A stretch of DNA of 41,470 bases from IMG/VR virus record IMGVR_UViG_3300042731_005244, positions 1 through 41,470 of that record, one strand, 5' to 3'. Below, in pieces: positions 20,503-39,190 of this stretch. Position numbers and translations under genes: made by a program. The DNA is from a virus. The notes under the pieces were generated by a model. The model saw only the letters and a list, made by a program, of their open reading frames with translations, did no database searches and was not told the DNA's origin. The stretch's first letter is position 1. Each line of letters opens with the position of its first letter.

Positions 20503-21911
20503 TGAGTATCGACAGGATTGATCATCCATGGGCTGAAAGTGGATCGCTTGAGACTACCCTTACAGACGACAAGCGCGATATCGGCTGGGTTGCAGGCGAC
20601 AGTCCTGACCAGCCAACGGTTGAACGATTTAACCTCTTGCAAAACGAAACAGACAATAAAATAAACGAAGCGATTGAGGTTGGCGTTGGGTCTGGAGCCG
20701 AAAAAACACCGTATTATCTTGGCCTATTTGAACATGGATCATCACCAATGCTGCCGGATGATGAATCCAATACTATTGCTCAGGGTAGCTCAGCAGGTGG
20801 CAGCTTAAACGATCTAGTTTACACCACAAAGGATGGAAAGAATATCATCCTGGCTGTCAGAGGTGACACTAGACTTGTTTTGTACGATATAGATAATATG
20901 GTATGGCTCGAGGATGTCGAAGAATCAACATTGGGCAGCATTGGAGATGAGATATATTCAGCTTGTTCGGACGGAACGTATGCTTACGTACTGTGGGCGG
21001 ATACTACAGCATCACCTGATGATTATTTTGTCCAAGCGTACGACATGTCTACGTGGAGCATAAAAGCAGGCTGGCCAGCTGGAGGCGTTGAATTAACCGC
21101 ACATGGTACAACGTTTACGTCTTTTCAGGCCAAAATTAGGATGGCAACCTCTGAAAAGCTTGTTGTGACACAACCGTGGGTTGTATTGTCAAGCGGGACT
21201 AGCGCTGCTGTATCGATATTATCGACTGACGATGGAACGATAGACGGTACTGGAGCAGGCGATTGTGGATCTTTATCATCCGGACAAATATTTGGCGCCT
21301 GCTCAAATGGCACATATGTTTTTTTGGCTATAGATAACGGTACTGATTTGATATTATCGTCGATGTCAATCGCTTCGCCAGGTTCTACAGGGTGTAGTTG
21401 GTCATGGACACCAAGTAGTTATACTACGGGAATCGCATCTACATATTTCGGCGGTATAGCATGCTGTGGCAACATGATAGTGATGACTTTTAATGATAAT
21501 ACCAACCTAGCAACGATATACACTACAGCACAAGGTCGGACGGCACACTTCCAGACATCAGACGCGGATGTGATCGAAAAGCTTGGGCCTGTTTGCTCAG
21601 ATGGTCTTAATTTCTGGGCCCTTGGGACCAGGGAGCGACAGGGGGCAACTGATGATATATTGATGTTATACAAATTTGAGACGCATGGCACAGGGTATTA
21701 TTCAACCGGGGCGTCAACATATGAGACGTACACAAACGGCGACGAATACTTCCACGGATTTAAATCAATGCCAACTCTACCAGATGGTTTTGCTGATTTC
21801 AGCGATAACCCAATTTCATCTGATGGAGATGCCATATGGTTTTGTCCTTCTACTGATGCATCAGGAACAGGTGCTTCGGTTTACAGATTAAGAAGATCTT
21901 TGTTTAGGTAA
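20502..21911 (+). CDS. Tail fibre / receptor-binding protein
   Basis: A 469-aa protein at the end of the baseplate operon. The first 60 residues (DRIDHPWAESGSLETTLTDD; ERFNLLQNETDNKINEAI) look like an attachment domain. From about residue 95 to the end there are repeating beta modules with CSDGTYAYVLW, CSNGTYVFLAI, CCGNMIVMTF and CSDGLNFWAL segments, spaced about 60-110 residues, like the blades of a beta-propeller. It is the most likely host-recognition protein of the tail. It ends 8 bases into the 3' end of the opposite-strand sigma gene, with no terminator between them. Confidence 0.6.
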   Translation: MSIDRIDHPWAESGSLETTLTDDKRDIGWVAGDSPDQPTVERFNLLQNETDNKINEAIEVGVGSGAEKTPYYLGLFEHGSSPMLPDDESNTIAQGSSAGGSLNDLVYTTKDGKNIILAVRGDTRLVLYDIDNMVWLEDVEESTLGSIGDEIYSACSDGTYAYVLWADTTASPDDYFVQAYDMSTWSIKAGWPAGGVELTAHGTTFTSFQAKIRMATSEKLVVTQPWVVLSSGTSAAVSILSTDDGTIDGTGAGDCGSLSSGQIFGACSNGTYVFLAIDNGTDLILSSMSIASPGSTGCSWSWTPSSYTTGIASTYFGGIACCGNMIVMTFNDNTNLATIYTTAQGRTAHFQTSDADVIEKLGPVCSDGLNFWALGTRERQGATDDILMLYKFETHGTGYYSTGASTYETYTNGDEYFHGFKSMPTLPDGFADFSDNPISSDGDAIWFCPSTDASGTGASVYRLRRSLFR

Positions 21912-22689
21912 GCTCAGACTTTAGCAAAATTTTAAGTTTGGCAATTGCCATTTTTTTTATTTGATCTATTCTCTGCCTGGTCACTCCGTACTCCTCACCT
22001 ATTGCTTCCATGGTTTTGCCCTGCAAGCAATGATCTTTCAAAATTATCTGTGCGATATCGTTAGGTACGCCAGCATTATTTCCAAAGCGCAAATGCACCT
22101 TATCTATCGTCTCTAGCAGTTTTTCTATCGTCTGTTTTGTGTCTAGCACATCCTCTATTTCTGGGTCAGGTGCAGCACCTGAAGACAAAACAGCCTCCTC
22201 ATCAATCCATCCTCGCCGGCTGTAGTCTTCGTTGTCGTTCTTGTTATACATATGCAAAACAGTCGTGGAATATTCTCGCTCTAAAAATGCAGTTCGGCTT
22301 TTTGTGCTGTTATATTTTGGCAGTATATTTTTTATTTCTGGCGAATCAATTGTCAGAGATGGATCTTTTTGGAGTTTTGCTTCCATTAGTAATTTTTTGT
22401 GCGCAGTGCCAAATGGAGCAAACACTAGTTTGTCTTCGTAGCTGTACTCACGTAGTAGCCTTCTGATCCAATACCACGCAATCGTCCCAAGTGATCCTCG
22501 GGATTCATCCCAAACTTTTACTGCTCGCATTAGTCCAAATGCTGCGATTTGATGGATATCATCTACTCTATTACTGTTTCTATCCTTGTCACTTGCGATC
22601 CATTTTTGAGCGTGAAACCTTGCTAGGCCAATATTTTCTTCGACTATTCTTGCTTCTCTAGGGCTCAGTGGTTCCATGTTTAGTCTCAT
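21904..22689 (-). CDS. Phage RNA polymerase sigma factor
   Basis: A 261-aa sigma70-family factor. Region 2 lies near residues 18-75 (LARFHAQKWIAS, VDDIHQIAAFGLMRAVKVWD, IAWYWIRRLLREY). Region 4 lies near residues 225-255 (MEAIGEEYGVTRQRIDQIKKMA), a helix-turn-helix that would read the -35 box. Between them is an acidic linker. I chose ATG 22689 rather than the upstream ATG 22716: it overlaps the stop of the previous gene by 4 bases (ATGA) and has AGGAG nine bases before it. As last gene of the leftward early operon it probably redirects host polymerase to late genes. Confidence 0.8.
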   Translation of the reverse strand: MRLNMEPLSPREARIVEENIGLARFHAQKWIASDKDRNSNRVDDIHQIAAFGLMRAVKVWDESRGSLGTIAWYWIRRLLREYSYEDKLVFAPFGTAHKKLLMEAKLQKDPSLTIDSPEIKNILPKYNSTKSRTAFLEREYSTTVLHMYNKNDNEDYSRRGWIDEEAVLSSGAAPDPEIEDVLDTKQTIEKLLETIDKVHLRFGNNAGVPNDIAQIILKDHCLQGKTMEAIGEEYGVTRQRIDQIKKMAIAKLKILLKSELT

Positions 22690-23279
22690 TGTTTGTTGCT
22701 CCTGCATCGTTTGCATATCGCGCGATATCCATCGCCAGCTTTGTGAAATTCACCGATATGCGGATATCCGTTATAACAAATCCCAATCCTTCCCGACTCA
22801 AGACCCTCTCGCATGGAGTCTTCATCTTCGCCGTTGTTATCCATAAATTTATCGATTTCTAACGTGGTTTCTATTCCCCGAATTGACCGAGTTTCTTGAG
22901 TGTTTTCTTTTTTGTTGTAATAACCACCCGTTGGCAATACCGCTCTATCTATTCTGCTCTGTTTTCCTGAAATGGTTGTTCCTGTTAGAACCTCATTCCG
23001 AAATGAGGCATAGTCAGAAACTATCTCATTTCGGCACATGGATTCCTCATATAAACCAATGCCTTCTTGGGTTATTACATAATTTTTCTTATCTACTGCA
23101 AGGTATCCGTTTTTTAGTCCTCTTGTAACCGCATCAATGATTATGTCGTTGTCTGTTGGCGATATTTTGCAAAGCAATTCGTTGTTAAAATCAACGTTAT
23201 CATTCTGGTGTCGCATCATTACGCCGAGGATTGAATACATCGTTTGTTCTATTTTTATTTCTCGCTGTTTATCTCTCAT
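22686..23279 (-). CDS. Winged-helix protein with C-terminal zinc finger
   Basis: A 197-aa protein. Residues about 5-80 form a winged-helix-like domain (EQTMYSILGVMMRHQ, DAVTRGLKNGYLAVDKK, YVITQEGIGLYEE). A long polar linker follows. The end holds CYNGYPHIGEFHKAGDGYRAICKRC, given here in parts: CYNGYPHIGEFH and GYRAICKRC. This is a treble-clef-like arrangement of Cys, then F, then C-x2-C, like the N-terminus of endonuclease VII-type zinc modules, though the first Cys pair is incomplete. It lies between the nuclease and sigma genes and may be a transcription or DNA-processing factor. Confidence 0.5.
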   Translation of the reverse strand: MRDKQREIKIEQTMYSILGVMMRHQNDNVDFNNELLCKISPTDNDIIIDAVTRGLKNGYLAVDKKNYVITQEGIGLYEESMCRNEIVSDYASFRNEVLTGTTISGKQSRIDRAVLPTGGYYNKKENTQETRSIRGIETTLEIDKFMDNNGEDEDSMREGLESGRIGICYNGYPHIGEFHKAGDGYRAICKRCRSNKQ

Positions 23280-23644: not shown

Positions 23645-23810
23645 TTCTTTTCTCCCTTACTCGTTTGTTTATTATTTTGGCAGCAATTGCACCTAGTTTG
23701 TCGTACAAAGTCAACGCTTCGCTATCGGTCAGAACCATTATGTCCAGCCCTTGATCATCCTTGATTTCAACCGATAATAAAACGCCTGGAGTGTATTTTA
23801 CGTCAATCAT
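23631..23810 (-). CDS. 59-aa small protein of the recombination operon
   Basis: A small gene from ATG 23810 to TGA 23631-23633. The start overlaps the stop of the exonuclease-annealase gene by 4 bases (ATGA) and the end overlaps the VRR-NUC start by 14 bases. The product (MIDVKYTPGVLLSVEIKD, then a helix EALTLYDKLGAIAAKIINK and a basic tail) looks like a beta-hairpin followed by a helix. The tight overlaps are good evidence for translation. Function unknown; a partner of the nuclease or annealase is possible. Confidence 0.6.
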   Translation of the reverse strand: MIDVKYTPGVLLSVEIKDDQGLDIMVLTDSEALTLYDKLGAIAAKIINKRVREKRSEKQ

Positions 23811-24388
23811 TCCATCTCTTCCGTAGCGTAAAGGCCGTTAATAACATCCGGAAAAAGTTCTCTAATAATCATAGTTGCAGCTCGCCACTTGAGCATAATT
23901 GCAGGTTGTTTTATCCAGTTGTCTTTGCTAGCGAGTTCTAGTCGTTCAGCATCTTTCATCGTAAATGTTCTTTTTATTCCCTCAGGCGTGCCTTTCCTCT
24001 TACCGGCCCATGATGATTCAGAATCGGTAGTATCAACACAGTATAAATACTCACATTGCTGAGAAGCCAAAACCAAGCCAACCATAAGACTAGCGGCCAT
24101 GGTTGGCTTACCTTTGATAACGTTAATACCGTCGAGTGCTGTCGTAGCGTCAAGACCTAGGGCTCTGCCTCTCATGATAGTTACCATTATCGCCTGAGGA
24201 GTCGGAAATTTTGAGTAGAGCCGAGATTGAAAAAAGGCCTCTGAAATCCTGTAGCACTCATTGACCCCGATTGGCTCTAGGGATTGCCGGAACCCAACTG
24301 GGTCGTGTTGCACCGTTATTGCTGCGGTTTGTGCTGGCACGGGTTTTGTTTCTTGCGCAACGGTTTCTTCACTTGTTTTTTGCTGCAT
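23807..24388 (-). CDS. Candidate internal start: stand-alone RecT-like protein
   Basis: Inside the fusion gene, codon 240 is ATG (24388), in frame, and sits exactly at the start of the linker before the annealase domain. AAAGGAG (24395-24401 on the minus strand) lies 6 bases upstream, a near-perfect ribosome site and better than that of the full-length gene. Initiation here would give a 193-aa annealase alone, so one frame could make both a fusion and a free annealing protein. It may instead be a relic of a separate gene before fusion. Only the sequence evidence is direct. Confidence 0.5.
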   Translation of the reverse strand: MQQKTSEETVAQETKPVPAQTAAITVQHDPVGFRQSLEPIGVNECYRISEAFFQSRLYSKFPTPQAIMVTIMRGRALGLDATTALDGINVIKGKPTMAASLMVGLVLASQQCEYLYCVDTTDSESSWAGKRKGTPEGIKRTFTMKDAERLELASKDNWIKQPAIMLKWRAATMIIRELFPDVINGLYATEEME

Positions 24389-25105
24389 GTCTTTCTCCTT
24401 TTGCTCAATAGTTAGCACTGATGCGCAGTCTTGCAGCGTAATGAGTTTTTTCATCTCGAATATATATTCGAGAGCTGCGTTTAGGTTTGCGAGCGTAGAA
24501 GGCTTAAACTTATCTGGAGATCTCAATCTCTGCTCAAAAATCTCCTCAATGGAGCCAAAAGTGTCTAGAAGCGCAATTGCAGTCTTCGGGCCAACGCCTT
24601 TTACACCTGGAATATTGTCTGAGTTATCACCAATCAGTGTTAAAAAGTCGACAACTTGGCTACGTTTGACGCCAAGAGTGTTTTCGGCAGTTTTGCAGTT
24701 TCTGCTCCATGGCTCAATCACATCGCAACATTGCAGTAAATCTTTGTCGCTCCCATATACAACGGCATCCTTGTATTGATGTTGTATAAGTGTGTATATA
24801 ACGTCATCCGCTTCGTATTTTTTTGCTGAAGCCACTTTCCATCCATCGTTAAGTATCTCTTCGGTGCATCGCTTGAGCTCCTCCTGTGCAGCCTCGCTGC
24901 GGTCTGCTCGATTTGCCTTGTACTCTGGATATTCATCAGTTCTCCAGTAGGGTGGACTATCCAAAGCAACAATTACATCTCCGTTCCCATACAATGACCG
25001 CACAAATCCGAGTGTTTTCCTTCTGGCACTGGAAACTTCGTCTCCGTCTGAGGCATGCCAGTTCCGCCAATATAGAGCGGATAAATCAATTATCTGCGCT
25101 GGCAT
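23807..25105 (-). CDS. 5'-3' exonuclease fused to RecT-like annealing protein
   Basis: A 432-aa fusion. Residues 1-235 are a complete flap/5' exonuclease of the Pol I type: D7 (IIDLSAL), D49 (ALDSP), YKANR near 62-66, YEADD 97-101, GSDKD 118-122, LIGDNSDNIPGVKGVGPKTA (157-176; D160 and D163 bind metal, then helix-hairpin-helix). Residues 236-275 are a polar linker. Residues 280-432 look like a RecT-type single-strand annealing protein: RISEAFFQSRLYSKF, MRGRALGLDATTALDGINVI, GKPTMAASLMVGLVL, WRAATMIIRELFPDVINGLY. An exonuclease and an annealase are normally separate genes that work as a pair. GGGATGGAAG precedes ATG 25105. Confidence 0.75.
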   Translation of the reverse strand: MPAQIIDLSALYWRNWHASDGDEVSSARRKTLGFVRSLYGNGDVIVALDSPPYWRTDEYPEYKANRADRSEAAQEELKRCTEEILNDGWKVASAKKYEADDVIYTLIQHQYKDAVVYGSDKDLLQCCDVIEPWSRNCKTAENTLGVKRSQVVDFLTLIGDNSDNIPGVKGVGPKTAIALLDTFGSIEEIFEQRLRSPDKFKPSTLANLNAALEYIFEMKKLITLQDCASVLTIEQKEKDMQQKTSEETVAQETKPVPAQTAAITVQHDPVGFRQSLEPIGVNECYRISEAFFQSRLYSKFPTPQAIMVTIMRGRALGLDATTALDGINVIKGKPTMAASLMVGLVLASQQCEYLYCVDTTDSESSWAGKRKGTPEGIKRTFTMKDAERLELASKDNWIKQPAIMLKWRAATMIIRELFPDVINGLYATEEME

Positions 25106-25382: not shown

Positions 25383-25418
25383 CATTTTTTTATTGACACC
25401 TTTTTATCGCGTGATATT
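25357..25418. promoter_or_regulatory. Inverted repeat overlapping both -10 boxes
   Basis: AATATCACGC (25357-25366) and GCGTGATATT (25409-25418) form perfect 10-base arms centred near 25387, one over each -10 element. This could be an operator that switches both operons together, or just the shared extended -10 sequence of two copies of one promoter type. Confidence 0.45.
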
Positions 25419-27585: not shown

Positions 27586-28077
27586 GTGAGAGTAACAGTA
27601 GAAAAAGTTTTGGCCTTGAATCCATGTTACAGTCGCGAAGAAATCAAAACGCTCGCCGCTGGCAGAAAATGGGTTAGGCCTAGGACAATAGCAAAGATGG
27701 ATATAGCATACCGCGACAGGCTTTGGGTGTTAACAGGGTTGATGTCTGGGCAACAACAGGGCGAATTTGCGCGCAGATGTGCACTCGACGTTAAACGTTT
27801 CTGGGATGCGCCTGATATAGTAAAAAAATACTTAGAAACAGGGGATGGGGCGATTATGGAGGCTGCAAGGGAGGCGGCTTGGACAGCTGGCCGGCCCGCA
27901 TTTGCTGACCAGACATGGGATAGGGCTAGATCGTCAGCCTTCTCGGCGTCTCAGGCTGGATCCTGGGATGCGTGCAGGGATGCATCCTGGGATGCAGTTT
28001 ACGCCAATGTTGCCTCCAGACGCTTGGCGTGGGAAAAATATATCAGTTGGTGTGTTGAGTATTTAGACCAACAATAA
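27586..28077 (+). CDS. Paralogue 1 of the six-gene Ala-rich family
   Basis: A 163-aa protein starting at GTG 27586 (RVTVEKVLALNPCYSREE). The family core has three parts: an N-terminal CYSR...AGRKW...RTIAK segment, a DRLWVLTGLMS-x-x-Q-x-x-EFARRCALDV helix region, and an Ala-rich variable C-terminal half closed by EKYISWCVEYLD. This copy stands alone, before the small genes and dnaB, and ends DQQ rather than GTKE. The helix-rich A-x-x-A-W-D-A pattern resembles the Ala-rich proteins often annotated as Imm5-like immunity proteins; that link is from memory and weak. Function unknown. Confidence 0.6.
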   Translation: MRVTVEKVLALNPCYSREEIKTLAAGRKWVRPRTIAKMDIAYRDRLWVLTGLMSGQQQGEFARRCALDVKRFWDAPDIVKKYLETGDGAIMEAAREAAWTAGRPAFADQTWDRARSSAFSASQAGSWDACRDASWDAVYANVASRRLAWEKYISWCVEYLDQQ

Positions 28078-28087
28078 GGAAAGAAAA

Positions 28088-28168
28088 ATGAAAGACGCAA
28101 AACCGACACCGATGAGCGCAATAAAATCTCACTGCCATGAGTGCCTAGGGTGCTACTATGACGGATAG
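28088..28168 (+). CDS. Very small Cys-rich ORF, possibly amber-interrupted
   Basis: A 26-codon frame from ATG 28088 with Cys at CHECLGC ends at TAG 28166-28168. The same frame goes on for 13 codons (beginning RACEKAS) to TGA 28208-28210, so one stop splits a possible 40-aa zinc protein. Phages often carry small zinc proteins with CxxCxG near a similar place. Read-through or a decayed gene are both possible. The upstream AAGGAAAG (28077-28084) is a fair ribosome site. Confidence 0.3.
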   Translation: MKDAKPTPMSAIKSHCHECLGCYYDG

Positions 28169-28219
28169 CGAGCCTGTGAGAAGGCATCACGGACTTTAAA
28201 AAGTGAATGAGGTTAACAG

Positions 28220-28432
28220 ATGAAAGATGCTGAGGTAAGAAAAGAAATAGGGTGTTTGATAAAAATTGGTGCGCTTGTTGAGTGTCTAATGCAGTGTGGG
28301 AATTGCAAGCACTATGAACCAGCCGATTTAATGTGTGCTAATCCTGCACACGAATTACCAGAATCAGTAGAAATCACAGAGCGCTGTGGAAATTGGGAAT
28401 TAAACGAAAGACCGACAGATCGAGGATTGTGA
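28220..28432 (+). CDS. 70-aa Cys-rich zinc-binding-like protein
   Basis: A 70-aa protein with CGNCKHYEP, then C-x10-14 spacing to a final RCGNWEL. The pattern C-x2-C-x-x-Y, then a lone C, then C-G-x-W is that of many short phage and bacterial zinc proteins. The N-terminal 25 residues are a helix (DAEVRKEIGCLIKIGALVE). GAGGTTAACAG precedes ATG 28220. It lies between a paralogue gene and dnaB, so a role in replication or gene control is plausible. No partner is identified. Confidence 0.55.
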   Translation: MKDAEVRKEIGCLIKIGALVECLMQCGNCKHYEPADLMCANPAHELPESVEITERCGNWELNERPTDRGL

Positions 28433-28510
28433 GGCGCGTATATCGAGCGAATCCTCGTTAGAGGCACTAAGACTGGGGAGAGCTCGTAAGTCCGAGAGGA
28501 GTGAAGAGGA

Positions 28511-29803
28511 ATGAATCACACACCACCGCACGATCTGGAGCTAGAAAAAGCTGTACTCGGCTGCGTGATATTGGACAACCGGCTTGGTGCTACAGTGTGC
28601 GGGGATGTAAGTGTTGATAGTTTTTACGATACTCGTAATAGAGTCATTTTTGATGCAGTAAGGCAACTTGTGGAGGCAAGCGAGCCGGTAGATGCCGTTA
28701 CAGTCCACGGGAGGCTATCTGAGGCCGCTAAGAAGGCAGATGGCATGGTAGCATACCTGTCGACGCTTACGGACTCTGTAGCCACCATACAGCGCCTTGA
28801 GAGCTATATTGCAAAACTGAAAGAGCTTGAGCGCCATCGCAACCTTATTTGCACCGCAGCTGGCATCGCTGAGAAAGGCTACTCGGCAACAGACACGGTT
28901 GATTATATAAAAACGGCTCGTGAGGAGATCACCAAAATTACGGATAATGTCGAGGCATCCTCGTTTGTGCAGGTTAAGGAGGTGTCAGGAGATGTGTACG
29001 ACGAGCTTTTGAGCAATGATCCTCCAAGGGGACTGATAAAAACCGGAATACATGCTATCGACTCAGAGTATGGAGGTCTTTGGCCTGGGGTGGTTACGAT
29101 GCTAGCTGCTCGTCCGTCGATGGGAAAATCGGCTCTGGCTCTGACGATATTGGCTAACGCAGCGCTGGCTCAAAAAAAAGTGCTGTTTTTTAGTTTAGAA
29201 GACACAAAGGAGATGGTAGTCAGGCGCTTATTCGCGCGATTTGCGGATATCAATAGCCACAAACTGCTTAACAGGTCTCTGAATTTTGAGGAGATTAGGC
29301 GACTAGAGGGTGCGCGCGATATAATAAACTGCCTGCCTATTACAATTGATGATACTAGCGCCTACAATGCGCAGACGCTAAGAGGACGCATACAGCGACA
29401 GATTGATACTGAGGGGGTTGATCTATTGGTGATAGATCACCTGGACTACATTGACGCGGGAGGGGATGGCGTTTACGAGCGAACTACCGCTAAGGCAAAG
29501 GCAGTTACTCAGATAATCAGAGATCTCAAGTTGCCTAATATCGTGTTGCACCAACTAAACCGGCAAAACACTACGAGACCTGATAAAATGCCAGCTCTAT
29601 CAGATCTCAGAGGATCAGGCGATATTGAGCAGTTAATTAGAGTTGCGTGGTTTTTGCACAGGGAGCACTACTACGACAAAGACCAGGGAGATGAAAACGA
29701 GGCTACTTTGCTTATTGCAAAAAACAGTCATGGACCCACAGGTTCAATCGGACTACATTGCGATTTATCCAGGATGCATTTTTGTGATAAGCAGCAGTTT
29801 TAA
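28511..29803 (+). CDS. dnaB: Replicative DNA helicase DnaB
   Basis: A 430-aa DnaB-type helicase. N-terminal helical domain: residues 8-105 (LELEKAVLGCVILDN, DSFYDTRNRVIFDAV). RecA-like core: Walker A RPSMGKSA near 201-208, followed by LALTILANAAL, Walker B LLVIDHLDYID near 305-315, a LSDLRGSGDIEQ sensor (near 365-376), and a C-terminal ALLIAKNSHGPTG-like strand (here ATLLIAKNSHGPTGSI). It is slightly shorter than the usual 440-470 aa but complete. AGAGG at 28504-28508. With the O-like initiator upstream it supplies the fork helicase. No phage primase is seen, so host DnaG is probably used. Confidence 0.9.
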   Translation: MNHTPPHDLELEKAVLGCVILDNRLGATVCGDVSVDSFYDTRNRVIFDAVRQLVEASEPVDAVTVHGRLSEAAKKADGMVAYLSTLTDSVATIQRLESYIAKLKELERHRNLICTAAGIAEKGYSATDTVDYIKTAREEITKITDNVEASSFVQVKEVSGDVYDELLSNDPPRGLIKTGIHAIDSEYGGLWPGVVTMLAARPSMGKSALALTILANAALAQKKVLFFSLEDTKEMVVRRLFARFADINSHKLLNRSLNFEEIRRLEGARDIINCLPITIDDTSAYNAQTLRGRIQRQIDTEGVDLLVIDHLDYIDAGGDGVYERTTAKAKAVTQIIRDLKLPNIVLHQLNRQNTTRPDKMPALSDLRGSGDIEQLIRVAWFLHREHYYDKDQGDENEATLLIAKNSHGPTGSIGLHCDLSRMHFCDKQQF

Positions 29804-29813
29804 AGGAGATGAC

Positions 29814-30365
29814 ATGCGTGTGACACTGGAAAAAATATTGGAGATGGGCCCGTGCTATAGTAGAGGAAAAATCGAAAAACTTTTTGCTGGCCGAAAATGG
29901 CTTGCGCCTAGAACAATCTCTAAATTGAATATACCACCAGATGATCGGATTTGGGTATTAACAGGATTAATGTCAGGAAAGCAACAACGCGAATTTTCTC
30001 GCAGGTGTGCATTGGACGTTATACATTTATGGGATGCTTCACCGGTTGTAAAAAAATACTTAGAAACAGGCTATGAGGAGATTAGGGAGGCAGCTAAGGA
30101 GGCGGTATTATTCTCTGCCGTTTCTGCCGCCTGGGGCACGGATTGGGAAGCCCCTTGGCTAGCAACTAAAAAAGTGTCCACGAATGATAGCGTTGTAATA
30201 GCCAGGCGTGCAGCAATTGCAGCGTCAAGGGCCGCCGCAAACCATGTATGCGCGAACACGCCAGAGGTAGCGCCATGGGATTTAGTGAGGAACGCTGAAA
30301 TAGAAAAATATATCAGCTGGTGTATCGAATACCTCGATGGAACAAAGGAGATAACGTGCGAGTAA
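29814..30365 (+). CDS. Paralogue 2 of the Ala-rich family
   Basis: A 183-aa protein starting at ATG 29814 with AAGGAG (29803-29808), right after dnaB. It keeps the family core and ends EKYISWCIEYLDGTKEITCE. Its variable half (residues 95-155) is a private version with VSTNDSVVIARRAAIAAS. The stretch 29950-30025 is identical, base for base, to 30492-30567 in paralogue 3. The end overlaps the next GTG start by 10 bases; the GTKE codons supply the AAAGGAG ribosome site of the next copy. Function unknown. Confidence 0.65.
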   Translation: MRVTLEKILEMGPCYSRGKIEKLFAGRKWLAPRTISKLNIPPDDRIWVLTGLMSGKQQREFSRRCALDVIHLWDASPVVKKYLETGYEEIREAAKEAVLFSAVSAAWGTDWEAPWLATKKVSTNDSVVIARRAAIAASRAAANHVCANTPEVAPWDLVRNAEIEKYISWCIEYLDGTKEITCE

Positions 30366-30898
30366 CAATGGAAAAAATATTGGAGCTAAAGCCGTGTTAC
30401 AGTCGCGAAGAAATCGAAAAACTTTTTGCCGGTAGAAAATGGATTAGCCCTAGAACAATCGCTAGATTGGATATCCCTTTAGATGATCGACTTTGGGTAT
30501 TAACAGGATTAATGTCAGGAAAGCAACAACGCGAATTTTCTCGCAGGTGTGCATTGGACGTTATACACCTCTGGGAAGCGCCGGATATAGTAAAAAAATA
30601 CCTGAAAACTGGCGATGAGGATATTAGGGAGGCAGCAAATAAGATCGATTGGTACGATGCCATCGCAGCAGCGATGTATGAATTTAAGGCAGCAGCAAGG
30701 GACGCAGCAGCTCTGGCAACAACGACTGACGAAACATGGGCCTCAGCAAGAGCTGCCGCTAGAGCCACAGCGAGTCATGTTTCTGGAAACATGCCCGATG
30801 TGGCATCTTGGAATTTTGCTTGGACCGACGCAATGGAAAAATATATTGGCTGGTGTGTCGAATACCTCGATGGGACAAAGGAGATAACGTGCGAGTAA
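30356..30898 (+). CDS. Paralogue 3 of the Ala-rich family
   Basis: A 180-aa protein from GTG 30356, translated VRVTMEKILELKPCYS. Its first half is close to copy 2. Its variable half has MYEFKAAARDAAALATTTDE and then a segment WASARAAARATASH, which it shares with paralogue 6 (34 identical bases at 30735-30768 and 32298-32331). Overlap with both neighbours is 10 bases, and the next copy's ribosome site lies in its last codons. The pattern of one half like copy 2 and another like copy 6 points to recombination between copies. Function unknown. Confidence 0.65.
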   Translation: MRVTMEKILELKPCYSREEIEKLFAGRKWISPRTIARLDIPLDDRLWVLTGLMSGKQQREFSRRCALDVIHLWEAPDIVKKYLKTGDEDIREAANKIDWYDAIAAAMYEFKAAARDAAALATTTDETWASARAAARATASHVSGNMPDVASWNFAWTDAMEKYIGWCVEYLDGTKEITCE

Positions 30899-31407
30899 CA
30901 ATGGAAAAAATATTGGCGCTAAGGCCATGCTACAGCAGGAAAAAGATCGAAAAACTTTTTGCCGGTAGAAAATGGATTTGCACTAGAACAATAGCTAATT
31001 TAGACATCCCACACGGTGACAGGCTTTGGGTGTTAACCGGGCTAATGTCAATAAAACAATGTCGAGAATTTGCTCGACGTTGTGCACTCGACGTTATCCA
31101 TTTATGTGAGGCACCTGATATTGTAAAAGACTACCTTAAAACAGTCGATGAGGAGATTAGAGAGGCGGCTTGGGACGCGGTAAACAGTAAAATCTGTTCG
31201 CTCGTTTGTGATTTCGCCTGTTCAGCGGCTTGCACAAGAGATCCAGAAATAACCAGAGATGCTGCATATCACACCGCTTGGGAAGCGGCTAGAGAGGCGG
31301 TTTTTGACACTGCCAAATATACGACTTACGAGGAAAACTGTGAAAAATACATCAGTTGGTGTGTAGAGTATCTCGATGGAACAAAGGAGATGACATGCGT
31401 GGGATAA
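30889..31407 (+). CDS. Paralogue 4 of the Ala-rich family
   Basis: A 172-aa protein from GTG 30889. It has the family core with RRCALDVIHLCEAP (Cys in place of the Trp seen in copies 2, 3 and 6). Its variable half is Cys-rich (KICSLVCDFACSAACTRDPE) and nearly identical to copy 5: 70 consecutive bases at 31228-31297 match 31734-31803. It ends GTKEMTCVG, the only copy with this end. The overlap with copy 5 is 13 bases. Function unknown. Confidence 0.65.
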   Translation: MRVTMEKILALRPCYSRKKIEKLFAGRKWICTRTIANLDIPHGDRLWVLTGLMSIKQCREFARRCALDVIHLCEAPDIVKDYLKTVDEEIREAAWDAVNSKICSLVCDFACSAACTRDPEITRDAAYHTAWEAAREAVFDTAKYTTYEENCEKYISWCVEYLDGTKEMTCVG

Positions 31408-31910
31408 TGGAAAAAATAATGAAGATGGATCCCTGCTATAGCAAGAAAAAAACCGAAGAAATATTTGCCGTTAGAAAATGGCTTACGCCTATAACAATCG
31501 CGAAATTGGATATTCCGCTAAATGATAGGCTCTGGGTGTTAATAGGCTTGCTCTCACAACAACAACAACGCGAATTTTCTCGCCGATGTGCACTGGACGT
31601 AATTCACTTATGTGTTGCTCCACCGGTTGTAAAAAAATATTTAAAAACTGGTGATGAGACGATTAGGGAGGCAGCTTGGCTCGCGGTAAACAGTAATATC
31701 TGCTCATTCGTTTGTGATTTCGCCTTTTCTGCTGCTTGCACAAGAGATCCAGAAATAACCAGAGATGCTGCATATCACACCGCTTGGGAAGCGGCTAGAG
31801 AGGGAGTTTGGGACACTGCCAAATATACGACTTACGAGGAAAACTGTGAAAAATATATCAGTTGGTGTGTCGAATACCTCGATGGAACAAAGGAGACAAC
31901 GTGCGAGTAA
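31395..31910 (+). CDS. Paralogue 5 of the Ala-rich family
   Basis: A 171-aa protein from ATG 31395 (AAGGAG at 31384-31389). Its N-terminal half is the most diverged (MRGIMEKIMKMDPCYSKKKT, VRKWLTPITIAK, LIGLLSQQQQREFSRRC). Its C-terminal half repeats that of copy 4 with few changes. A diverged first half joined to a near-identical second half is best explained by gene conversion or crossover. It ends GTKETTCE, overlapping copy 6 by 10 bases. Function unknown. Confidence 0.65.
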   Translation: MRGIMEKIMKMDPCYSKKKTEEIFAVRKWLTPITIAKLDIPLNDRLWVLIGLLSQQQQREFSRRCALDVIHLCVAPPVVKKYLKTGDETIREAAWLAVNSNICSFVCDFAFSAACTRDPEITRDAAYHTAWEAAREGVWDTAKYTTYEENCEKYISWCVEYLDGTKETTCE

Positions 31911-32470
31911 CGATGGAAAAAATAATGAATATGGGCCCATGCTATAGTAGATGGAAGATCGAAAAAATTTTTGCTGGTAGAAAATGGCTTAGCCATAGAA
32001 CAATAGCCAGATTGAATATATCGCTAAACGATCGACTCTGGGTATTGATAAAATTGATGCCTGAAAAACAATGTCGTGAATTTGCCCGCAAATGTGCACT
32101 TGATGTAATCCATCTTTGGAATGCTCCTGATATTGTAATAAGATATCTCGAAACAGGTGATGAGGAGATTAGGGAGGCAGCCAGGGAAGCGGCTAGTGCA
32201 GCAGTCCGGCCCGAATTTGCCGACTTGGCATGGGATTCAGCTATAGCATCAGCTTTCTCGGCGTCTCAGGCTGGATCCTGGGAAGCGGCTAGGGATGCAT
32301 GGGCCTCAGCAAGAGCTGCCGCTAGAGCCACGGCTAATCAGATATCTCTGAGCATACCCGAGGCAGCTCCATGGGATGTTGTTTGGGCTGAGGCAATGGA
32401 AAAATATATCGTCTGGTGTGTGGAGTATTTGGATATGCAATGTTTTTGGCGGAGCTTATGTGTCCGCTGA
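31901..32470 (+). CDS. Paralogue 6 of the Ala-rich family
   Basis: A 189-aa protein from GTG 31901. The core has LIKLMPEKQCREFARKCALDV. Its variable half joins a segment shared with copy 1 (29 identical bases, 27940-27968 and 32255-32283) to one shared with copy 3 (32298-32331), so it is a mosaic of both. It ends with EKYIVWCVEYLDMQCFWRSLCVR: the GTKE end is lost and a different tail follows, fitting the last copy of a tandem array. Function unknown. Confidence 0.65.
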   Translation: MRVTMEKIMNMGPCYSRWKIEKIFAGRKWLSHRTIARLNISLNDRLWVLIKLMPEKQCREFARKCALDVIHLWNAPDIVIRYLETGDEEIREAAREAASAAVRPEFADLAWDSAIASAFSASQAGSWEAARDAWASARAAARATANQISLSIPEAAPWDVVWAEAMEKYIVWCVEYLDMQCFWRSLCVR

Positions 32471-32517: not shown

Positions 32518-33144
32518 ATGAGGATTACAGGTGTAATGGGGGGTGCTTTGCCATTTGTTGCTGTACTATCGGCTGGGTGCTACGAGTCTAGCTTTTGTGC
32601 GGAGGATTTCATTTCTGACAGCTGTATCGGCGATAGTGACCGAGTGTGGTATTTTTCAAATTCCTTCAGCTCTGATGAGCTTGCCGAAATTGCCGATGCG
32701 ATTGATACAGTCAATGACATATTTAACGCTGACATACAGGTCTGTGGGATAATCGGAGGTACCAAGGCAACTGGCACTATCAGAGATGGTAAATATAGTG
32801 TGAGTGGGCTGGAATATTCTGGGTTTATTTGCACTGAGGCTCCATACCATTGCTGGTACCTGGACGATTATCAAGACCCTGGCATCAGGGTATTTCAGAG
32901 GGACTATACATCCAGTGGGGATACAACAGGGTATTGTCAGTATAGCGCTGGTGGGGATATTATTTTGAACACTCAAAATATTAGAAATGAGCGTCATTTT
33001 CGCAAGGTGATTTTGCATGAGATTGGACATTATCTAGGCTTCAGGGGGCATCTTGATGACCCTGACAATATAATGGCTCAAGGATGGAGTGGGGTGTCAG
33101 AATACACACAAGCGGATATTGATGGAATTTCGAACAGCATGTAA
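32518..33144 (+). CDS. Metzincin-like zinc protease, predicted lipoprotein
   Basis: A 208-aa protein with a signal peptide (MRITGVMGGALPFVAVLSAGC, lipobox LSAGC with C21 as lipid site), so probably anchored in the outer or inner membrane of the infected cell. Residues 167-178 read HEIGHYLGFRGH and residues 183-186 DNIM, the zinc-binding helix and Met-turn of the matrixin/metzincin clan. The usual spacing is HExxHxxGxxH; here one extra residue (G177) pushes the third His to 178. Several cysteines suggest disulfides. AAAGGAG at 32506-32512. It could act on host surface proteins. An odd gene for a phage. Confidence 0.6.
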   Translation: MRITGVMGGALPFVAVLSAGCYESSFCAEDFISDSCIGDSDRVWYFSNSFSSDELAEIADAIDTVNDIFNADIQVCGIIGGTKATGTIRDGKYSVSGLEYSGFICTEAPYHCWYLDDYQDPGIRVFQRDYTSSGDTTGYCQYSAGGDIILNTQNIRNERHFRKVILHEIGHYLGFRGHLDDPDNIMAQGWSGVSEYTQADIDGISNSM

Positions 33145-34962: not shown

Positions 34963-35139
34963 ATGGATTGCAAAAAATGCAATAACTGTACAGCATGGTA
35001 TCCCTTTCCATGGGATGAGCGGTGGATCATGTGTGAGGTTCGTCGCGACAATTTGGACGAAAAACGTAAGGCAAAAAAATGTCGGACCATGTCCTCCGAG
35101 GACTCGGTCCGCCGCACGCCAAACAGCGAGAGCTCCTAG
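34963..35139 (+). CDS. 58-aa zinc-finger-like protein overlapping the terminase start
   Basis: A 58-aa protein starting MDCKKCNNCTAWYPFPWDERW, with cysteines at 3, 6, 9, 24 and 39, a C-x2-C-x2-C cluster plus two more, fitting a small zinc protein. Its last 61 bases overlap the start of the large terminase in another frame, so the Ser/Arg-rich C-terminal end is constrained by that gene. No strong ribosome site precedes ATG 34963, so the start is uncertain. Function unknown. Confidence 0.4.
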   Translation: MDCKKCNNCTAWYPFPWDERWIMCEVRRDNLDEKRKAKKCRTMSSEDSVRRTPNSESS

Positions 35140-36446
35140 ATTATATTCTTACTCCCTCCAATGAGGTAAAAAAGGTTGACTTGGTCTGTGGTCGCGGATT
35201 TGGCAAGACCGAGTTTGCAATAATTCTCTCTGTGATGGCTTTGGCTAGATCGCCGAGAGAGGTTGGTCTTTTCTTGGAACCGGATCTCAATCGTGTCCGG
35301 AAGGTGTTTCTCAAGAAGTGGTTTGCGGCGGTACCTCCTAGTTTGTATACAATAAATCGACAGGATCGAGTAATAACAATGAGGTGGGGCGCTCAACTGT
35401 TTTATGGTGGGCGTAACGTAACAGGAGCCAGTGGGACAGCTGCTGATACTCAGCTAGGGCAAGACACGACGTTTGTAATTTCCGACGAAGAGGCGATTTA
35501 TTGCAACCTTGATTTTTACGTAAATACATTTAATACAATCCGTGTTGATAGCCCATCTAGGTTTTATCTTACTCTATCAACTCCTCGCGTTGGCAGATAC
35601 AAAGAGCTGATTACTAGTAAGGGGCATAAGGTTTTCCAAGGAACCTCATGGGACAATCCATATACCGGGCCTGAGTATGTTAGAGGCATGATGGAGAATA
35701 TGACTCGCTCTCAAATCAGGAGGGAGATATACGCGGAATTCATCAGCCTTGAAGGTCGGATTTGGCCAGAATTTGATGGGGAGACGCCTTGGCCATATGG
35801 AAACTTGTGGAAGGGTGGATTCAACGAAGATAAGCCCTGGTGGCTATTTTGTGATCTTGGTAGCGCAACAGGAAGCTTTGTGGTTGTTCAACGAGAAGAG
35901 CCGATAGCACAGGACGGGCGCAGGTTGTTTGATGGTGACCTGTGGGTTGCTAAGGCCGATCTTTGCCCGCAGTCAGATGGCAGCGCAACCAGGGCTTTTT
36001 CCATGTTGCGTGAACGATATGGTTGTCCTGTAAGTGTTACCGCTGGAGCTGATATTAACACTCGTGGCTCTGGCGAGGGCAAGTCAATTGCCTATTTCGC
36101 AAAACAAACTTGGGGTGACCATGTGACGATCAAGCCGGTGTCAGAGCGGATGTTTGATAAACAGATCCAATATGATCGGCTATCATTCGCCATTAACGAT
36201 AGTTCCGACAGACGTAGGTTCTGTGTCTCTTCGAATTATAAAGAGCTGGACCCAGACTCCAAGAGAGGTGTGCGGCAGGTTATGGAACAGGATGAGTGGC
36301 CGGATTCGGATAAGCGCAACCCCTCCCATTTTCTGCCGAAAAACAAAGAGTGCTTGATCCAGCATTGTAGAGATGCGCTTTTGATGGGAGCTGTGTCAAC
36401 GATGGCTCCACCTACTTGGGGGCATAAAATCAGTGTGGCTAAATAA
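35079..36446 (+). CDS. terL: Terminase large subunit
   Basis: A 455-aa packaging motor protein with ATPase and nuclease domains. Walker A GRGFGKT at residues 38-44, Walker B FVISDEE near 132-139 (E138 or E139 as catalytic base), then a coupling segment (FYLTLSTPR). The nuclease domain has LFCDLGSATGSFVVV with D259 as likely metal ligand, ADINTRGSGEG (D325) and a C-terminal RDALLMG aspartate. The length is standard. AAGG lies seven bases before ATG 35079, within the end of the zinc-finger gene. It translocates DNA through the portal (37577). Confidence 0.9.
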   Translation: MSDHVLRGLGPPHAKQRELLDYILTPSNEVKKVDLVCGRGFGKTEFAIILSVMALARSPREVGLFLEPDLNRVRKVFLKKWFAAVPPSLYTINRQDRVITMRWGAQLFYGGRNVTGASGTAADTQLGQDTTFVISDEEAIYCNLDFYVNTFNTIRVDSPSRFYLTLSTPRVGRYKELITSKGHKVFQGTSWDNPYTGPEYVRGMMENMTRSQIRREIYAEFISLEGRIWPEFDGETPWPYGNLWKGGFNEDKPWWLFCDLGSATGSFVVVQREEPIAQDGRRLFDGDLWVAKADLCPQSDGSATRAFSMLRERYGCPVSVTAGADINTRGSGEGKSIAYFAKQTWGDHVTIKPVSERMFDKQIQYDRLSFAINDSSDRRRFCVSSNYKELDPDSKRGVRQVMEQDEWPDSDKRNPSHFLPKNKECLIQHCRDALLMGAVSTMAPPTWGHKISVAK

Positions 36447-37576: not shown

Positions 37577-39190
37577 ATGAGCATCACGCGACAGAATCCA
37601 AATGATATCCAGCGGTTGGCGATACTAGCCTACGAGGATTCCATACGTGATATGGATCGGTACTTTGGCAGAGTTGACGACCATGATCAGATCAAAGAGG
37701 CGATTAAGACCCAGTATGGCGTTGGAATCAAAGAGGTGGCTGACCCCAGCTCAAACAGTGATGCTGTTAGAGAGACCTATGTAAAACGCGACTTTTCAAC
37801 AGCCGTTGATGAGGGGCTAGTCGAAACGATTAGTGTTGGATTTGGTCAGAAAGTGTCAGCTGCACTCGCCACCTTGTTTAGTGAGCCAGGGATGCGCCTG
37901 GACTTGGTCCATGATGTGGTTGAAGACTTGGCTATGGCTGAGGACTTGATTGATAATCAGCGTAATGTCGGTGGATTGCAGGCTGCGCTCGTGGAGACAG
38001 ATAAACAATCGTGCCAGGTTGGTAGTTCTGTTATCTTCGTACAGCACAAAAACGACACATTAGATTACGCAAAAATTTCCCCCGCTGATATTCGTGCGAT
38101 TTTCGGCGAAACGATAGAGGAAAATGGCGAGCGAAGAGCGGTTGATACGCAAGACATCGAAGATGCATCGGCCGTAATAATAAATTTGGGCCCTATCGAG
38201 CTGGGCAAAAATAGATATATCGGAATTGTTGCTCGCTCAGAGGGTTATCCATACGGCCGCTGGGTCGAATACTCATCACACGATGGTCAGCAATTGCCAG
38301 CGGATTACGACTCATCAGCGATTGAATACGAAATTGATGGCGAACAGGCTAATCCTTTATCCTGGTACGCAGCAACTAACCCAGATGTGAGCGTGCCAGA
38401 ATACCCGTTGATAGTTATAAAAGGAGGAATCTGTGACACAGCCGAGCTTACCCCCATTACAGATAGTCTCTATCTCGACTCTAAAGCATTTGATGTTGCC
38501 GCCAGCCATACGCTATCTAAGAGCCAGGACAACATCAACGGTACCATCGTTATCACCAGGGATCATGAATCGCCGCACGCTCTGCCTCGCACGTTATCCT
38601 CTGCAATTGCGTTAGAGCCAAAACAGGACGCCAAAAAATTGGATTCCGACAGCTCCGGGGCAATCGATGCCCTCGAGGCGTTGGAACGACTAATGCTGCA
38701 CTGCGCCGCCGGTTACTCTGTACCAGATTATCTGGTAGTAAGCAGAGATCACACATTAACGGCATCTAGCGGTGTAGCCTTACAGGTTAAAGCTCGGCCG
38801 CTGATTAAAAACAGAGAATACCGAGCAGAGCTCAACCAGCAGCAGGTAGCTAAGCTGTTTGAGATTGAGAAATACCTGCTTGCGATACATCACGAAGGCG
38901 ATGACACAGCAGTCAATTTGCTGCTTGATTGCCAACAAACCTGGGATCCTGGTGCTCTAAAGTTGCCAGAAGATAAAAACGAGTTAGCAAATCGTTTGTC
39001 GACGCTGCTTGACAAGGGCATCATTGACGTGCTAGAGTACCTTAGAAGCTATTATTTGTTACCTAGTGATGTTGACGCCGAGGAGATGTATCGACGCATG
39101 AATGAGCGGAAAGAGGAATTCCCTCCTCTCAACAAAGAGGCGATGGATGCTCAAAAACCGAAACAGCTCGGCTTACAGCGTAATCGATAG
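37577..39190 (+). CDS. Portal protein
   Basis: A 537-aa protein of portal size in the canonical place between terminase and MuF genes. The first half has helices and strands (KVSAALATLFSEPGMRLDLV; CQVGSSVIFVQHKN, YAKISPADIRAIFGE), and the second half the long stem and crown helices (TASSGVALQVKARPLIKNREY; ELNQQQVAKLFEIEKYLLAI), followed by a C-terminal helix region (LDKGIIDVLEYLRSYYLL). The SSGVALxxK-x-RPL pattern is typical of SPP1-type portals. It forms the dodecameric DNA channel. GTAAGAAAG precedes ATG 37577. Confidence 0.85.
   Translation: MSITRQNPNDIQRLAILAYEDSIRDMDRYFGRVDDHDQIKEAIKTQYGVGIKEVADPSSNSDAVRETYVKRDFSTAVDEGLVETISVGFGQKVSAALATLFSEPGMRLDLVHDVVEDLAMAEDLIDNQRNVGGLQAALVETDKQSCQVGSSVIFVQHKNDTLDYAKISPADIRAIFGETIEENGERRAVDTQDIEDASAVIINLGPIELGKNRYIGIVARSEGYPYGRWVEYSSHDGQQLPADYDSSAIEYEIDGEQANPLSWYAATNPDVSVPEYPLIVIKGGICDTAELTPITDSLYLDSKAFDVAASHTLSKSQDNINGTIVITRDHESPHALPRTLSSAIALEPKQDAKKLDSDSSGAIDALEALERLMLHCAAGYSVPDYLVVSRDHTLTASSGVALQVKARPLIKNREYRAELNQQQVAKLFEIEKYLLAIHHEGDDTAVNLLLDCQQTWDPGALKLPEDKNELANRLSTLLDKGIIDVLEYLRSYYLLPSDVDAEEMYRRMNERKEEFPPLNKEAMDAQKPKQLGLQRNR

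Follow-up and report, generated by a model that had tools for sequence, protein, structure and literature searches.

Why should one phage carry six versions of a single gene, five of them side by side, and what might such a set of proteins do? The question arose from IMG/VR virus record IMGVR_UViG_3300042731_005244, of which positions 1 to 41,470 (41,470 nucleotides, here called the window) were analyzed. ORF reading and alignment, together with a record-wide search that used copy 3 (c3) as the query, bore out the six paralogues, five in tandem, that had been reported in a preliminary description of the sequence. The search returned exactly six loci, the five other than c3 itself at E values of 2e-49 to 1e-71. 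All six ORFs are on the + strand, and c2 to c6 lie head to tail with overlaps (Table 1). The genes sum to 3,192 nt, which is 7.7% of the record and not the nearly 10 percent first estimated; the span from 27586 to 32470 also includes non-family genes, the DnaB helicase (28511-29803) and a small ORF, both located between c1 and c2. Each of the six proteins consists of a conserved N-terminal helical domain of about 90 amino acids, a helical middle that is Ala-rich and variable, and a short end in which EKYI-x-WCVEYLD is conserved.

Table 1. Positions of the paralogues, their shared tracts and associated genes in the window
Feature	Position	Strand	Remarks
Copy 1 (c1)	27586-28077	+	163 aa, GTG start; separated from the array by two genes
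Copy 2 (c2)	29814-30365	+	183 aa, ATG start; opens the tandem five; phrog_18326 E=2.2e-4
Copy 3 (c3)	30356-30898	+	180 aa, GTG start; structure model pLDDT 84
Copy 4 (c4)	30889-31407	+	172 aa, GTG start; phrog_18326 E=1.4e-5
Copy 5 (c5)	31395-31910	+	171 aa, ATG start; middle nearly identical to that of c4
Copy 6 (c6)	31901-32470	+	189 aa, GTG start; phrog_18326 E=4.6e-7
c2/c3 junction	30344-30358	+	last codons of c2 (T-K-E-I-T) spell AAAGGAG, likely ribosome site of c3; 10-nt overlap
76-nt exact tract, c2/c3	29950-30025 = 30492-30567	+	N-terminal domain
70-nt exact tract, c4/c5	31228-31297 = 31734-31803	+	middle
29-nt exact tract, c1/c6	32255-32283 (c6) = 27940-27968 (c1)	+	precedes the c3-shared tract in c6
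34-nt exact tract, c3/c6	32298-32331 (c6) = 30735-30768 (c3)	+	follows the c1-shared tract
DnaB-type replicative helicase	28511-29803	+	between c1 and the array, replication module; Pfam DnaB_C 1.7e-57
5'-3' exonuclease with C-terminal RecT-like annealing region	23807-25105	-	PHROG exonuclease 9.9e-31, RecT 7.8e-15; Pfam 5_3_exonuc

Each gene from c2 to c5 overlaps the next by 10-13 nt. The sequences at the ends of c2 to c5 encode G-T-K-E-x-T, and these codons contain AAAGGAG 5 nt upstream of the next start, so that each unit supplies a likely ribosome site for the copy that follows. The two copies with no other directly after them, c1 and c6, are also without this tail. We regard it as likely that the copies form a functional, co-expressed set.

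Within the N-terminal 282 nt, pairs of copies are 66-82% identical in DNA. A Sawyer-type permutation test of this segment gave global significance to a c2/c3 run of 37 consecutive identical polymorphic sites (global P = 0.0002) and to no other pair; the rest of the evidence for mosaic structure is drawn from the middle segments. There, c4 and c5 are identical at 158/171 positions (92%), as against 200/282 (71%) in their N-terminal segments (Fisher P = 1.3e-8). The middles of c1 and c6 are 70% identical, those of c3 and c6 66%, and those of the remaining pairs 41-52%. The middle of c6 is itself a join, its first half c1-like and its second half c3-like. The c2/c3 run and the c4/c5 excess indicate that the shared tracts go beyond overall similarity. 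All four exact tracts listed in the preliminary description were reproduced, and its picture of a shuffled cassette with differing middles held. The pairings in the middle depart from those in the N-terminal segment, and such a cassette recurs with variable copy number in relatives, as described below.

The N-terminal domains of all six copies show dN/dS values of 0.11-0.27, characteristic of purifying selection, and point changes thus give no sign of diversifying selection. The selection for variety that had been proposed is not borne out at this level, and for the cassette it is plausible but unproven. Values of dS for this domain among the window copies are mostly near or above 1. The copies are, by these values, old and functional, with exchange at a later time; given this age, the window array is no fresh dosage response.

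Profile comparisons indicate that the window proteins are divergent members of a widespread phage family, phrog_18326 (PHROGs v4, function not annotated). Searched singly, five of the six match its profile (c3 at 5.8e-4 and c5 at 3.2e-3, with c6 the best), and c1 alone gave 0.34, within noise. Comparison of the six window proteins with 14 relatives from named phages by hhalign gave a probability of 98.6 and an E value of 7.5e-16. The protein of Vibrio phage 367.14 matches phrog_18326 at 3.5e-55, and L007, from IMG/VR, is a bridging relative with a match at 3.4e-10. In alignments, the N-terminal motifs T-L-x-x-I ... PC ... D-x2-W ... R-x-FA-x-WCA-x2-V are present in the window copies and in the family, and positions D44, W47, C65-A66 and V69 are common to the window copies and the phrog_18326 relatives. 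The N-terminal domain of about 90 amino acids is found in all family members. The likeness to named phages (Vibrio phage 367.14, Pseudomonas phages AF and PPpW-3, and Burkholderia phage Bcep176 gp36) takes in both this domain and the Ala-rich second half, but these phages mostly have a single copy where the window phage has six. The window copies also differ from them in their conserved end and in a middle that is less Ala-rich (18-32% Ala in the six copies) and less periodic; in relatives the second half is strongly periodic, in most of them with a W/R/D/S-A-A repeat. This repeat has been lost from the Dickeya members, and in Dickeya phage Amaethon (L025, 3343-4549) two very divergent adjacent members have no Ala-rich repeats in their second halves. 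Proteins of the phrog_21347 or Salmonella phage 9NA gp10 type can be aligned by the phrog_18326-family model, but they are more divergent, are single copy and have AAYAADA-type repeats.

A structure model of c3 built from 67 sequences (pTM 0.78) is all helical save two very short strand-like stretches. The structural check that had been suggested, a Foldseek search, was run on this model and found no PDB neighbor (best E 0.78, prob 0.14); in a search of a viral-structure library, two uncharacterized proteins were the only high-probability matches. Pfam, NCBIfam and PADLOC profiles gave no credible family match to the window copies, and none of the known anti-phage defence proteins represented by the PADLOC profiles matches any copy. 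A DNA-mimic antirestriction protein of the Ocr/ArdA type was considered and rejected on charge, which is not strongly negative (net -4.3 to +3.5 at pH 7). A search of the literature for phrog_18326-type proteins and phage paralogue arrays found nothing on the family.

Members of the family occur in phages of Vibrio, Pseudomonas, Erwinia, Salmonella, Burkholderia, Dickeya and Curvibacter, and 583 family places were confirmed in IMG/VR with one query. When the window copies were used as direct queries of IMG/VR and the GTDB genomes, one relative only was obtained, and searches with the terminase-like protein, the portal-like protein and the array junction pattern found no close relatives of the window phage. 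Among 20 records, 19 of which are named or catalogued phages, most have one family copy each, a count in which one gene gives split matches in two of the records and in which the divergent second copy of Dickeya phage Amaethon does not appear; the Vibrio phage VPALA record has a second copy broken by stops. A single copy was likewise found at 166 of 175 loci, with two copies at six, three at one and four at two, some contigs or populations being included twice in this count. The four overlapping tandem copies at L065 share exact tracts of 63 nt (copies 2/3), 56 nt (3/4), 53 nt (2/4) and 37 nt (1/2); other tandem arrays, which like this one recur in unrelated phages, have three copies (L173) or two (L164/L167, L056 and Dickeya phage Amaethon). 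In a tree of the N-terminal domain every array forms its own clade, which suggests that expansion happened repeatedly, although concerted evolution of older duplicates could produce the same pattern. The phage represented by IMGVR_UViG_3300029982_000034 and 3300030041_000113 (L059, L062, L044) shows that copies can also multiply without forming a tandem array: it has at least three at scattered positions, and some 6.5 kb separates two of these. L059 and L044 had been considered as a replaced gene between identical flanks, but the 3.8 kb that they share is downstream of one and upstream of the other, and they are therefore different copies in one multi-copy phage.

A difference in copy number between near-identical genomes is the mark of a gene accordion, and L167 and L173 differ in this way. 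Their flanks are identical at 2288/2294 and 3333/3334 positions (99.7-99.97%) and their last copies at 679/681, but L167 has two copies and L173 three. Copy 1 of L167 is a recombinant: it tracks copy 1 of L173 on either side of a stretch of 16 informative sites in which it follows copy 2. This difference, with its recombinant copy, identifies a natural gene accordion. The same two-copy array is present on two separate contigs, L164 and L167, which are 99.98% identical over 5.3 kb. In two other pairs the sole indel is in frame and falls in the Ala-rich part of the family gene: 21 nt in 7.0 kb, with 0 substitutions, for L144/L145, and 12 nt in 9.2 kb, with 2 substitutions, for L031/L033.

Recombination among copies and change in copy number thus occur in this family. 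Multiplying and shuffling of copies is a family property, as the independent arrays and the changes in copy number between near-identical phages show, and a recombinational, accordion-like origin of the window array is very probable. According to the preliminary description, relatives in which the copies evolve as one conserved single-copy gene would speak against a cassette. Most relatives are indeed single-copy, but the independent arrays of four, three and two tandem copies and the L167/L173 difference, brought out by the comparison of related phages that it had called for, point the other way. Its cassette idea was right, and applies more widely than first put.

Our overall reading, to which we give an even chance, is that the six genes are paralogues of an early-region family, phrog_18326, which multiplied and have been retained as a gene accordion, and that they encode host-directed early proteins. 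Genes engaged in arms races with bacteria often multiply and shuffle their copies, and phage gene accordions are known chiefly from laboratory selection. T4 amplifies tifA against toxIN through recombination between short homologies (PMC9391042), and in T6 anti-defence loci are amplified through the action of SegB (PMC13096335). In tifA, as here, a small accessory phage gene is amplified in tandem via recombination, but that amplification is recent and laboratory-selected and the window copies are diverged, standing and mosaic; the T6 loci share the accordion behavior, but no homing endonuclease was seen adjoining the window array. By analogy with these accordions, our foremost guess for the family proteins, of somewhat less than even likelihood, is a role directed at the host or at defence. 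The anti-defence function that had been anticipated received no target from structure, neighborhood or family searches.

The neighborhood, with its DnaB and primase genes, makes a housekeeping role in replication the main rival: the copies would be a set of variants, or subunits of one complex, such as hetero-oligomeric partners of DnaB, and drift and gene conversion, not conflict, would have amplified them. The copies flank the DnaB gene in the window, replication or recombination genes (primase, exonuclease or RecT/ERF) adjoin the family gene in many relatives as well, and purifying selection acts on the N-terminal domain. We nevertheless think this role unlikely, since the family is sporadic and mostly single copy, some relatives adjoin terminase or sit elsewhere, and 125 loci showed no conserved neighbor, operon partner or replication partner, the commonest neighbor being present at 10/125. 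The in-frame variation of the Ala-rich repeats among near-identical phages suggests an intrinsically unstable locus, and it could be argued that short internal repeats make the locus prone to recombination and the arrays a passive by-product of selfish or neutral duplication. Against this, the window has six intact frames, its junction ribosome sites have been kept, dN/dS is 0.11-0.27 at dS mostly of about 1 or more, and a size-limited phage genome should lose neutral extra copies by decay; we consider it distinctly unlikely.

Still less probable are Imm5-kind immunity or superinfection-exclusion proteins that protect infected cells against toxins made by bacteria or against competing phages, a link that had been guessed from composition. 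The helical, Ala-rich composition is similar, and heterogeneous polyimmunity loci are known to hold immunity proteins (PMC3482391), but the likeness is one of composition only: a cut-off as loose as E 10 brought no Imm5_like (PF21805) match from the record, and 25 family members, among which no Imm5 or Imm5_like match was found, match no Imm family at E 0.1. Finally, the record is metagenomic, and strain variants might have been collapsed or falsely joined in assembly. Copies that differ by 18-34% in N-terminal DNA, with no exact tract longer than 76 nt, make such a collapse unlikely; the exact junction overlaps carry functional signals, comparable arrays occur in other samples, and one was recovered on two contigs (L164/L167), so that we rate an artefact as highly improbable.

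If the accordion reading with host-directed proteins is correct, both multiplication and exchange would come about when copies anneal or undergo unequal homologous recombination with one another, possibly with the aid of the phage's own exonuclease/RecT-like protein, a candidate engine for the shuffling. The conserved N-terminal domain would do a common job and the Ala-rich helix would give variable binding specificity. The early action of the proteins would be aimed at a host factor that varies, most probably a system of defence or competition, and extra copies would provide dosage plus a variant set. It is conceivable, if rather doubtful, that the whole is a built-in variant generator, in which a constant domain, an interchangeable Ala-rich helix and translationally coupled arrays let the phage keep up, through recombination, with a bacterial defence target that changes quickly. 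The family offers natural arrays that are standing, diverged and mosaic and that arose independently several times, along with near-identical phages whose chief difference is the number of copies. Were its proteins host-directed, it would be a large unstudied pool of counter-defence candidates, partly in named phages (Vibrio, Pseudomonas, Salmonella 9NA and Burkholderia), and the variable region would mark the target interface.

Several annotations of family members in named phages deserve comment. In Vibrio phage 1.154 (L014, 4361-4449), Ala-rich repeats of the family gene are annotated as CRISPR spacers, probably falsely, and the member in Curvibacter phage P26059A (L026, 3989-4576) has a tail fiber protein annotation that is probably wrong. 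In Vibrio phage VPALA (L015, 4714-6534), a long ORF of about 606-611 residues has the family domain at its C terminus.

The window has other features of interest. The terminase-like and portal-like ORFs (35079-36446 and 37577-39190) are almost without relatives in named phages or PHROGs; the lineage of this phage looks undescribed. The exonuclease and RecT-like ORF (23807-25105, - strand) is an apparent fusion of two recombination functions. A sigma-70-like factor (21904-22716, - strand; region 4 E 2e-7, region 2 1.4e-4) is encoded opposite the tail genes. Directly past c6, 32518-33144 (+ strand) encodes a matrixin-like metalloprotease (HEIGHYLGFRGH), an unexpected protein for a phage early region, whose N-terminus (LSAGC) resembles a lipobox. 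Three near-identical promoter-like sequences, TTGACA-16-TATNNT with TG before the second hexamer, lead into the rightward early genes at 25393, 25942 and 26425 (+ strand).
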